Assembly: GCF_001570745.1 (NCBI RefSeq)
Contig: NZ_BCSG01000031.1
Coordinates: forward strand, 1-48,362
Reading direction: 5' to 3'
Origin: Alicyclobacillus mali NBRC 102425
Lineage (GTDB): Bacteria > Bacillota > Bacilli > Alicyclobacillales > Alicyclobacillaceae
Length of the DNA stretch: 48,362 nucleotides
This document shows, one piece after another, positions 8,427 through 10,967 of the stretch; within the stretch, counting starts at the first letter, position 1, and every line of letters starts with the position of its first letter. The notes beneath the pieces are model-generated. The model was not told the DNA's origin. It made no database searches and saw nothing but the letters and a program-made list of their open reading frames with translations. The position numbers were made by a program, and so were the translations under genes.

Positions 8427-8858
8427 AGAACTTCTCGCATATTCCATCTACGTTTCGGCTTCAATTGCAGGACTATTGCATGAGCGTGTTGCAGATCGCG
8501 AGCCGTTGTGATGTAAGTGTTCCATTATAAAGAAGGGCTTCACCCCAATTTTAGATAAAGAAAATTGTATCCGACAAACCATTTCTACGGAGGGAAGTCT
8601 GACGTGTAATCTCGACATACATGGCTCTTCTGCTATGGCGGATGGATGGAAATTGACCCTCCGGAGCGGCGTGAGCCGTTTGCTTCGACATCCATCATCA
8701 ACCGGGATCCAGACTCCAGTGCTTTCGCTGCTCCTTCGAGTAAGCCGCAGGACTCCAATCAGGAAGCCGAATGAACCCGTGTTCCTAGCCTCCCGTATCT
8801 TCCTCGGTTGAATTGCGGTAGAATGGAGGAAAACGAATCCAGAAAGGATGTGCGCTGC
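8427..8858. other. Intergenic stretch with no recognisable gene
   Basis: About 430 bp between the GNAT gene and the DUF255 gene. All three forward frames carry multiple stops or give short unrecognised peptides, and the reverse frames look like shadow. The first half shares the lower GC of the GNAT gene. The only plausible signal is a -10-like TAGAAT at 8819-8824, suitably placed for the GTG start at 8859. It may be decayed DNA brought in with the acetyltransferase. Confidence 0.5.
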
Positions 8859-9029
8859 GTGGCTCACGAAGGACCCGCGAGGCACACGAATCGGTTGATC
8901 CACGAAAAGTCTCCGTATCTGCTCCAGCATGCCCATCAGCCCGTCGACTGGTACCCTTGGTGTCCAGAAGCCTTTCAACGAGCCAAGCGCGAGTCGAAGC
9001 CTGTGTTTTTGTCCATCGGCTATTCGTAG
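8859..9029 (+). pseudogene. DUF255/YyaL thioredoxin-domain protein, N-terminal part ending at an in-frame TAG
   Basis: The encoded start reads [20 protein letters not shown], followed by [14 protein letters not shown] and ends [11 protein letters not shown] before TAG 9027. This is the conserved beginning of the YyaL/SPATA20 (DUF255) family, which continues STCHWCHVM. The GTG start at 8859 has AAAGGA about 10 nt upstream; earlier in-frame ATG/TTG codons fall in the presumed promoter. The reading frame is identical to that of the downstream ORF, so only the 33-nt insert separates them. On its own the 56-residue fragment lacks the active site. Whether the gene is dead or translated through the insert cannot be told from sequence. 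Confidence 0.8.
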
Positions 9030-9059
9030 CCCCCTCGGGGGCCCAAGAGATTCCCTTCG
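9027..9059 (+). other. 33-nt in-frame insert with UAG, hairpin and matched flanking TCG codons
   Basis: The insert lies between TAT TCG (9021-9026) and ACC TGC CAT TGG TGT. It begins with TAG (9027-9029), contains a GC hairpin (GCCCC 9029-9033 with GGGGC 9038-9042, tetraloop CTCG), then AAGAGA and a second TTCG at 9056-9059 repeating TTCG 9023-9026. Deleting exactly 33 nt restores the family motif IGYSTCHWCHVM. The order of codon, stop, hairpin, purine-rich GAG and matched codon resembles the coding gap of phage T4 gene 60. It equally fits a small insertion with a 4-bp target duplication. Confidence 0.7.
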
Positions 9060-9077
9060 ACCTGCCATTGGTGTCAC

Positions 9078-10967
9078 GTGATGGCCCATGAGTCCTTTGA
9101 CGACGAGACCGTGGCCGCCATCCTCAACGAGCACTACGTCACCGTCAAAGTCGACCGCGAGGAGCGCCCGGACATCGATCACATCTACATGACCTATTGC
9201 CAGGCGTTGCAGGGCGAGGGCGGATGGCCGCTCACCATCATCATGACGCCCGACGGGCACCCGTTTTTCGCCGGCACCTACTTCCCCAAGACGCCGCGGT
9301 ACGGGCGGCCCGGGCTGATTCAGATCCTGCAGGAGATTGCCAGGCTGTGGCAGACAGATCGCGCGCGTCTGGAGCGGGCGAGCCGATCGATGGCGGAGCG
9401 CATGCAGCCCCTGTTCGAGGGACAAGCGGGTGAGGCGCGCGGCCGGGACGCCGCGGATCGAGCGTACCAGGCGCTCGAAGCGGCGTTTGACCAGGAGTAC
9501 GGCGGATTCGGCCCGGCGCCGAAGTTTCCCACGTTCCACCGGGTGCAATTTTTGCTGCGCTACGCGCGCCTGCGCCCGAACGAGCGCGCGGCCGCCATGG
9601 CGTTGTCCACGCTTCGCGCCATTCAGCGGGGCGGCATTGTCGATCACGTCGGTGGCGGCATGGCGCGCTACAGCACGGACCCGTTCTGGCGCGTGCCGCA
9701 CTTTGAAAAGATGCTCTACGATAACGCGCTGGCGCTCGCCGCGTATGCGGACGGCTACGTCCACGCCAAAGATCCGGCGTTTCTGCGCATCCTCCGGCAG
9801 ACCGTCGCGTTTTTTGATCGCGAGATGCGATCGCCCGAGGGCCTTTACTACAGCGCGGTGGACGCGGATTCGGCGGGCGGAGAGGGCCGCTTTTACCTCT
9901 GGCGGCCGGAGGACGTGATCGCGGCACTCGGCCCTGAAGACGGCGAACTGTACAACGCCTTCTACGACATCACGGAAGCCGGCAACTTCGAGGGCGCGAA
10001 CGTGCCGAACTACATCGGCCAGGATCCGGCGGCGTTCGCGGCTTCTCGCGGCATGACGGAAGAATCGCTCTGGCAGAAGCTCGACGACCTCAACGAGAAG
10101 CTGCGCTCGGTTCGGGACGGGCGCGAACGCCCGGCCATTGACGACAAGTGTCTGACCGCCTGGAATGCGCTCATGGCCTATGGACTTGCGCGCGCGGGCC
10201 TCGCGTGCGGAGAGACGGCGTGGGTGGACCGGGCCAGGGAGGTGGTGGCAGCCATCGAGCGCATCCTGGTGCGCCCCGACGATGGCAGGCTCCTCGCGCG
10301 GTATCGGGACGGCGAGGCCGGGATCTTCGCCTATGCGGACGATCACGCCTATCTCGTCGCCGCGTATCTGGAGCTCTATCGCGCGACGCTCGACCGCGCG
10401 TATCTTCATCGCGCCCGGCATTGGCAGGCGGTGCAGGATGCCCTCTTTTGGGACAAGGCTCAGGGCGGGTACACGTTTTACGGCCGAGACGCGGAGTCGC
10501 TCATCGCGGTGCCGAAGCCGGTGTATGACGGCGCCATGCCGTCCGCCAACAGCCAGTCGGCGCACAACCTCTGGATGTTGCACGCGCTGACCGGGGACGC
10601 CGAATACGCGGATGGGCTGGATGGACTGTTGCGCGCGTTTGGCGGAGACATCGCATCGGCGCCCATGGACTGCCTGTGGCTCGTGACCGCGGCCATGATG
10701 AGCGAAGTGGGCTCCACGGAAATCGTCATCGCGGCGCCACAGGAGGAAGCTGCGCGGAGGGCCAGGGAACTCGGGGCCATGGACCTGCCGGAGGCGGTCT
10801 GGCTGACGAGTGACGCGCGCGGCGACGCGTCCATGTACCCCATGGCAGAACATGGCGCGCCGCAGTACTTCGTGTGCCGAGGCTTTCGCTGCGATCGCCC
10901 GGAAACGGACTGGAAGGTGGTGGTGGAGGGTTTGCGGCAGCCGCCCGCCTGGAGCGAACAGTTGTGA
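9078..10967 (+). CDS. DUF255/YyaL thioredoxin-domain protein, main C-terminal ORF
   Basis: This ORF continues the gene interrupted at 9027 in the same frame. The open frame after the stop actually includes STCHWCHVMAHESF (9057 onward), the thioredoxin-like CxxC; an internal GTG start at 9078 would lose both cysteines. Downstream are KVDREERPDID, GGWPLTIIMTPDG, FFAGTYFPK, FGPAPKFPTFHRVQFLLRYA and GGGMARYSTDPFWRVPHFEKM, then the (alpha/alpha)6 glycosidase-like barrel. The 629-residue frame has no further lesion, so any inactivation must be recent, or the gene is still expressed. The family's biochemical role is not established. Confidence 0.8.
   Translation: MMAHESFDDETVAAILNEHYVTVKVDREERPDIDHIYMTYCQALQGEGGWPLTIIMTPDGHPFFAGTYFPKTPRYGRPGLIQILQEIARLWQTDRARLERASRSMAERMQPLFEGQAGEARGRDAADRAYQALEAAFDQEYGGFGPAPKFPTFHRVQFLLRYARLRPNERAAAMALSTLRAIQRGGIVDHVGGGMARYSTDPFWRVPHFEKMLYDNALALAAYADGYVHAKDPAFLRILRQTVAFFDREMRSPEGLYYSAVDADSAGGEGRFYLWRPEDVIAALGPEDGELYNAFYDITEAGNFEGANVPNYIGQDPAAFAASRGMTEESLWQKLDDLNEKLRSVRDGRERPAIDDKCLTAWNALMAYGLARAGLACGETAWVDRAREVVAAIERILVRPDDGRLLARYRDGEAGIFAYADDHAYLVAAYLELYRATLDRAYLHRARHWQAVQDALFWDKAQGGYTFYGRDAESLIAVPKPVYDGAMPSANSQSAHNLWMLHALTGDAEYADGLDGLLRAFGGDIASAPMDCLWLVTAAMMSEVGSTEIVIAAPQEEAARRARELGAMDLPEAVWLTSDARGDASMYPMAEHGAPQYFVCRGFRCDRPETDWKVVVEGLRQPPAWSEQL

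Follow-up and report, generated by a model that had tools for sequence, protein, structure and literature searches.

Results

The interrupted DUF255 gene

The window, that is the whole stretch of 48,362 nt from Alicyclobacillus mali analysed here, carries on its forward strand a DUF255/YyaL gene that is split by 33 nt (9027–9059) between a TCG and an ACC codon, one codon 5' of the CxxC motif. The 5' part (8823..9026) may start at ATG 8823, GTG 8850 or GTG 8859, ends with a Ser codon and is open in six genomes of the clade to which the window belongs. The 3' part (9060..10967) runs from the ACC (Thr) of TCHWC to the stop codon and matches Pfam PF03190 (DUF255, Thioredox_DsbH) with an E-value of 7.9e-52. 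The order at the junction is GGC TAT TCG (9018–9026), TAGCCCCCTCGGGGGCCCAAGAGATTCCCTTCG (9027–9059) and ACC TGC CAT TGG TGT (from 9060); translated in frame it gives FLSIGYS-stop-PPRGPKRFPS-TCHWCHVM, and in protein terms the boundary is IGYS / TCHWC. An initial annotation had described an in-frame, TAG-led segment between two TCG codons at this place, which the sequence confirms, and had put it forward as a candidate for programmed translational bypassing.

The insert opens with the stop codon TAG (9027–9029), directly 3' of the TCG proposed as take-off codon (9024..9026), and closes with another TCG (9057..9059), the proposed landing triplet, so that the whole of 9027..9059 would be the bypassed gap. 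Within it, GCCCC (9029–9033) pairs with GGGGC (9038–9042), and no further pairs are formed, to give the candidate take-off hairpin GCCCC-CUCG-GGGGC (9029..9042). The purine tract AAGAGA (9045..9050) resembles a weakened Shine-Dalgarno (SD) sequence and reads AAGGAG in the clade members G002, G003 and G009. With up to three mismatches allowed, the insert occurs only once in its own genome, and a known RNA element was rejected, as positions 8800–9300 gave no Rfam match up to an E-value of 1. Upstream of DUF255, Pfam (nine genes in the query set) identified GerAC, a spore permease, NIF3 and a GNAT acetyltransferase, while three genes had no match.

Distribution of the insert

The gene was matched in all 15 genomes of the genus. 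The site is readable in 14 of them, as the 15th locus falls at the end of a contig. Each of the 14 carries an insert at the same codon boundary as the window, of 33 nt in the window clade (G000, G002, G003, G009, G012 and G014) and of 20–58 nt in the other members. At the family level the gene is present in 37 of 41 genomes, and DNA-level reading of these 37 found an insert in 32 and a contiguous gene in four (G018, G019, G023 and G040), the site of G005 being unreadable since it is cut by a contig end.

Beyond the family, a pattern scan of named genomes returned at least 117 loci; among those listed, 50 are stop-led inserts at the IGYS/TCHWC boundary, 65 are contiguous genes with a chance upstream match, and two are odd (L147 and L163). 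Carriers of stop-led inserts include Clostridium, Anaerocolumna, Desulfosporosinus, Sporomusa, Paenibacillus, Anoxybacillus and Thermolongibacillus. Among 299 sampled Bacilli genomes, 119 were matched, and by manual count 37 of these look interrupted (stop inside the match in 11, split match in 26, part of them also read at the DNA level), 78 are contiguous and four are weak or fragmentary. The phylum of G322 has a match in 207 of 398 genomes; among the matches listed, nine are broken by a stop, and a further 18 resemble split genes in E-value and match number, most of these being judged from the match table rather than from DNA-level reading.

The insert in DUF255 at this boundary is therefore confirmed as real and is not a one-off. 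The alignment across relatives that the initial annotation had called for places it at the same boundary in the genus, the family, other Bacilli and Clostridia. Neither a sequencing error nor an assembly error, the latter listed earlier as an alternative, accounts for 14 of 14 readable genus loci and many independent genomes carrying an insert at one boundary. L147 apparently has two copies of the CHW codons of DUF255 (TGCCACTGG), at a distance of 23 nt and with no stop; this could be a frameshift, an error or another junction type.

Selection on the two gene parts

Both halves of the gene are under purifying selection in the window clade. Among its six species, dN/dS is 0–0.12 before the insert (last 53 codons, one pair undefined) and 0.07–0.13 after it (first 466 codons), and the 613 3' codons read in these species contain no stop. 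Likewise, no stop is listed in the matched 104-aa 3' stretch in any of the 37 family genomes. For the 87 inserts compared below, 29 of the 3' frames could be read to their stop; 28 of these have 573–659 codons and that of L099 runs into a scaffold gap, and the other 58 frames are open to the end of the available sequence. In view of the low dN/dS on both sides and the open 3' frame, the window gene has very likely remained functional while carrying the insert.

Random decay of the 3' part in close relatives had been named beforehand as a sign against bypassing, and it is not seen. The notion of a recent insertion that kills the gene likewise finds no support, since the insert is common to the genus and, in the window clade, neither side has a dN/dS much above 0.1. 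Manual reading found two of 18 unjoined 5' copies broken (L180/L208 and L202) and none truly broken among the joined ones; this comparison is weak, because the automatic “joined broken” class (30 rows) consists of pattern misses and false sites inside the hairpin.

Candidate take-off and landing codons

We compared 87 distinct inserts joined to a 3' part, including those of the window clade and leaving out L147 and L163, which have no stop after the take-off codon, and the first copy of L268, which is unjoined. These inserts are 11–61 nt long and fall into the three length phases as 37/27/23, so that 50 of the 87 are not a multiple of three. The leading stop is TAG in 59, TGA in 20 and TAA in eight. 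An in-frame ATG, GTG or TTG open to the 3' part is found in only 15, and the window is not among them.

The take-off codon and the last triplet of the insert are identical at 187 of 261 positions against 126.5 expected (sd 5.8), a value reached by none of 10,000 permutations. When the inserts were clustered by similarity, the 28 representatives still gave 61 of 84 against 34.0 (sd 4.3), again with none of 10,000 permutations. There is no excess of identity at offsets 1–6, and the signal is confined to the triplet directly before the resume codon. The repeat of the take-off codon at the end of the gap, first pointed out for TCG/TCG in the window, is thus borne out across the inserts, in a form that is not strict: three of three positions agree in 28 inserts, two in 44, one in 15 and none in 0. 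Take-off TCG lands on TCG, CCG, TGG, GCG, ACG or TAG, ending in G in 43 of 43 cases; TCA lands on TCA or CCA, TCC mostly on TCT, TTT or TCA, TCT mostly on TCA or TTT, and AGC on AGC, AGT, AGA, TGT, TGA, CGC, CGT or AAC. The landing triplet is a stop triplet in four of the 87, which would suit re-pairing and not decoding. Such a pattern is predicted by re-pairing of one peptidyl-tRNA and is not predicted by readthrough, RNA joining or reinitiation. Shared ancestry of element-borne 5' ends may inflate the identity in part.

Gly was also seen as take-off residue in place of Ser. In L140, GGT is paired with landing GGA, and a truncated copy (L263 at 3777) has take-off GGG and an 11-nt insert.

Hairpin, Shine-Dalgarno-like tract and upstream codons

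These signals were analysed in 81 inserts, 40 of them long (at least 30 nt, the unjoined copy of L268 included) and 41 short; the window clade has Q before PVDW and hence lies outside the search pattern of this set. The long inserts have a stem-loop directly after take-off with a mean z of −1.7 (below −1 in 30 of the 40). Its forms TAGCCC..GGGCTA and TGACC..GGTCA are both present, which is, at the level of sequence, compensatory change. An SD core lies at most 14 nt before landing in 29 of the 40, compared with a shuffled mean of 7.9. In the short inserts neither signal stands out: the mean z of the hairpin is 0.05, and an SD core is seen in two of 41. We propose that there are two types of bypass signal, namely hairpin plus SD for gaps of 30–61 nt and a short hop, mostly of 11–25 nt, without hairpin.

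Seen from these data, the two elements noted earlier in the window hold in part. The pairing GCCCC/GGGGC is present, but taken alone the hairpin is no better than dinucleotide shuffles (z −0.42), and the stop codon lies outside the stem, unlike in most long inserts of relatives, where it is inside. The purine-rich AAGAGA has its counterpart in the SD-like tract of the long inserts and in the AAGGAG of the three clade members, but is weakened in the window itself.

The five codons TTG TCC ATC GGC TAT, at 9009..9023 in the window, are synonymously constrained in long-insert genes. They occur at the site in 28/46 (TTG), 36/48 (TCC), 35/43 (ATC), 46/48 (GGC) and 41/48 (TAT) cases, against 121/592, 66/373, 200/430, 208/587 and 163/357 elsewhere in those gene parts, and codon −6 is free (p 0.87). 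Short-insert genes have a signature of their own, with TTC at −6 (27/41), TCT (34/42), ATT (32/37) and GGG (32/42) and with Tyr free (p 0.38), and in 34 contiguous genes GGC is the sole enriched codon (22/34, p 0.0001). These signatures may owe something to common ancestry of the 5' ends carried by elements. A recombinase arm of 25 nt (see below) would include neither the hairpin nor the upstream codons, and both are better explained as bypass signals. We also suggest that GGCUA-UUCG-UAGCC could form an alternative hairpin behind the ribosome.

In short-insert genes GGG is favoured as the Gly codon two before take-off (for example in L124 at 5934 and L099 at 4707). In that place, 5' of the gap, GGG might function like an SD signal.

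Recombinase islands and truncated copies

Alicyclobacillaceae genomes contain truncated DUF255 5' copies, which consist of about 50 codons and the insert and mostly continue with TCH and a stop. In G017 they lie at 506702, 775816 and 885212, followed by the full gene at 983636; in G032 at 4185965 and 4407726, with the full gene at 4573022; and in G030 at 3075344, with the full gene at 3133624. The copies are always upstream and on one strand with the full gene. A large serine recombinase gene lies 1.9–11.3 kb on from all six, and two of these genes are in pieces (the one in G030 and 780229 in G017). Among the genomes of named insert loci, the 5' end is matched more than once in 11 of 22, and truncated copies were read at the DNA level in six (G316, G319, G321, G323, G329 and G330).

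Islands are stacked at DUF255 (L281, L282, L283, L216, L226, L227; L215). In the three complete genomes G017, G032 and G030 the spacing of successive 5' copies is about 58 to 269 kb, and close to the junction there is a serine recombinase and, in many cases, a set of defence-like genes.

Recombinase genes or fragments were found at insert-bearing DUF255 genes (L058, L083, L089, L091, L099, L119, L121, L124, L156, L267 and L271) and at truncated copies (L287 and L292), with fragments only at L058, L089, L091, L271 and L287. The insert loci with a nearby recombinase include Sporomusa, Anaerocolumna, Paenibacillus and Thermolongibacillus, and the DUF255 5' part of L124 follows directly on the end of the recombinase. 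The two recombinases searched against Pfam have Resolvase, Recombinase and Zn-ribbon domains. No recombinase was found at contiguous loci in this comparison, but these loci belong largely to other phyla, and a recombinase is likewise missing from many insert loci for which the flanks compared are short or one-sided. The genomes G007 and G008, with inserts of 20 and 51 nt, share 95% amino-acid identity in the 3' parts and 65% in the 5' parts, as expected if an element had replaced the 5' end.

The cargo next to truncated copies comprised nine proteins (eight analysed by Pfam, nine by PADLOC), six of which resemble products of defence genes: Lamassu LmuA, Gabija GajB, a TOTE-type primase, an AbiV HEPN protein, PDC-M08B and a helicase piece resembling HamB/PDC-M23B. 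The remaining three are a PD-(D/E)XK transposase, a TPR/SEC-C protein and a DUF1801 protein.

Truncated 5' copies without any insert also exist (L260, L261, L262 and L265), with a contiguous full gene beside them in L261, L262 and L265. We regard these as another integration type at the same codons, in which the gene is restored seamlessly, and since contiguous restorations exist beside contiguous truncated copies, bypassing is not the sole way for elements to use the site. Matches of TCGTAGCCC..GGGC elsewhere were considered as other bypassed genes and rejected; the related ones are truncated DUF255 5' copies and the others look like chance.

Attachment-site arms

Arms were read outwards from the TG of the Trp codon, and the insert arm was compared with the far end of the element over 25 positions (20,000 shuffles). 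The mirror is 21/25 in the GGAGTA set, where no shuffle reaches it, 16/25 in Anaerocolumna G321 (three shuffles), 15/25 in Paenibacillus G316 (three), 14/25 in G323 (21) and 14/25 in G021 (72). In G330 there is no dyad (6/25, reached by 15,086 shuffles, not significant). Cross-set controls averaged 8.8 of 25, and their maximum of 16 comes from the G021 and GGAGTA arms, which are related (cross scores 15 and 16), so these two sets are not independent. Five of the six arm sets of relatives thus have dyad-symmetric attP arms around a 2-bp core. Because the insert arm mirrors the far end of the element in five of the six sets, the 3' part of the insert is by its sequence a recombinase arm in these relatives. 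The insert as one arm of a serine-recombinase attachment site is an origin that goes beyond the initial annotation.

For the window this origin is indirect. Arms of the AAGGAGTTTCCT type, similar to that of the window, occur in L036, L038 and partly L012, and the insert of the close relative G009 (AAGGAGTTTCCTTCGACC) resembles the arms AAGGAGTTTCCTATGCCGACC (L038) and AAGGAGTTTCCTAGGCCGACC (L036). Given this resemblance, the window insert most likely goes back to an arm of that family, of which it would be a shortened fossil. The putative P arm of the attR junction would occupy 9044..9068, and by comparison with relatives the probable core TG, in the Trp codon of CHWC, lies at 9069–9070. No attL or element was seen in the window and no serine recombinase on its contig; the two Recombinase-domain matches of the genome sit on other contigs.

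Discussion

Proposed bypassing and its alternatives

Programmed translational bypassing is the best supported reading of the insert. It draws on the conserved position, the stop directly after take-off, the lengths in all three frames, the co-variation of take-off and landing codons, the synonymous constraint, and the hairpin and SD-like tract of the long class; the candidate raised at first for the window alone has thereby gained support from comparison among relatives. On this reading the ribosome would translate up to Ser (TCG), with a stop codon and a hairpin then at its A site. The peptidyl-tRNA-Ser would let go of its codon, the ribosome would slide over 33 nt, and the tRNA would re-pair at the TCG before ACC, so that translation resumes to give IGYS-TCHWC with no extra residues.

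We regard as unlikely a split gene, in which translation stops at TAG, the 3' part is made by reinitiation and the two pieces assemble into one protein. The SD-like tract before the junction in long inserts would suit it, and L009 and L010 even have GGAG followed by ATG TCG AC(C/T) in frame, but few inserts offer an in-frame start, the break falls directly before the CxxC of a thioredoxin-like domain, and neither the co-variation nor the synonymous signature would be expected from it. It is more doubtful still that the insert kills DUF255 and that the 3' part is slowly decaying. A stop codon within the coding sequence, the element-borne integration and the two broken unjoined copies agree with such a loss, but not the long open 3' frames in the clade, the family and the wider set, the low dN/dS, or codons that co-vary between take-off and landing.

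Removal at the RNA level, by a very short intron or a transcript jump between the TCG repeats, would also restore the protein exactly and could make use of the short direct repeat at the ends. We consider it highly improbable: unrelated inserts of 11–61 nt share a stop and a codon-like end, a match in codon register is expected for a tRNA and not for RNA joining, and Rfam gave no match. No bacterial RNA splicing of such small size is known. Stop-codon readthrough had been offered as an alternative, and the window insert, in frame and with a single TAG, would allow it, but most inserts are not a multiple of three, so that it cannot serve as a general explanation. The added residues would moreover sit directly before CxxC, and no conserved peptide recurs across the compared loci; for the window itself its chance is close to nil.

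Returning to bypassing, we consider it very probable that ribosomes bypass the window segment and that this gap stems from an integration site, an origin with sequence support in relatives that we infer for the window. Large serine recombinase elements would integrate inside DUF255 at the CHWC codons, probably with the TG of the Trp codon as core, leave the old 5' end behind as a truncated copy and join a new, element-borne 5' end to the host 3' part. The attP arm would then have to sit just before the crossover, that is within the coding sequence, and many elements would keep it as a noncoding, bypassed insert. A recombinase arm that cannot be coding but has to lie within a coding gene offers a possible reason for an element to depend on bypassing. 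In the window clade the element would have been lost and the bypassed arm left behind. It is also probable that such islands are widespread in Bacilli and Clostridia, entering active-site codons while ribosomes bypass the attachment arm and the gene stays working.

Comparison with known systems

In the cited passages (PMC5009743, PMC11194080), the precedents for bypassing are T4 gene 60, yeast mitochondria and a proposed Streptomyces phage case; programmed bypassing has so far rested on very few cases. Phage T4 gene 60, with a 50-nt gap, shares with DUF255 the stop directly 3' of take-off and a landing codon that would pair with the take-off tRNA. DUF255, however, is a conserved chromosomal gene of many bacteria with gaps of 11–61 nt, its gap contains a putative recombinase arm in relatives, it has a short class without hairpin, and its N-terminal peptide before the gap is constrained by the protein itself. 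The byp-type blocks of Magnusiomyces mitochondria are described at 81 positions in 12 of 15 protein genes (PMC5009743), whereas the DUF255 case concerns one position in one gene family of many bacteria and is tied to a serine recombinase. For the terminase of Streptomyces phage Hau3 a short bypass was proposed, with an SD-like signal proposed 5' of the gap; it differs from DUF255 in being a phage gene with a key UUA codon, and the passages on it mention no attachment site.

The islands themselves are presumably best compared with large serine recombinase islands (phiC31-type integrases, SCC-like cassettes). They are alike in the Resolvase, Recombinase and Zn-ribbon protein, the dyad arms and the defence genes in the cargo, and differ in targeting the middle of a coding gene, in supplying a new 5' end and in that the attP arm would remain within the coding sequence. 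A literature search of open-licence papers turned up neither a case of bypassing in DUF255/YyaL nor one of a recombinase site that is bypassed, and the words “thioredoxin” and “DUF255” have 0 occurrences in the main text of PMC10083194.

If the bypass reading is true, bacterial chromosomes would hold in these loci a first large set of natural bypass sites, and the design of recombination sites would be tied directly to recoding. The 87 natural gaps, varied in length and sequence at one site, would form a comparative set for the requirements of take-off and landing. Genes that look broken would be functional, and mobile DNA could sit in a gene without destroying it, provided that ribosomes skip the remnant of its docking site. 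DUF255 would also serve as a marker for islands able to carry defence genes.

Plasmid records also gave matches. A single phage match was obtained, MT839133.1 (L228), which is labelled Bacteriophage sp. and ends in a contiguous DUF255 start. A phage origin was rejected on this basis, since the record looks like a piece of an actinobacterial chromosome and is probably mislabelled.
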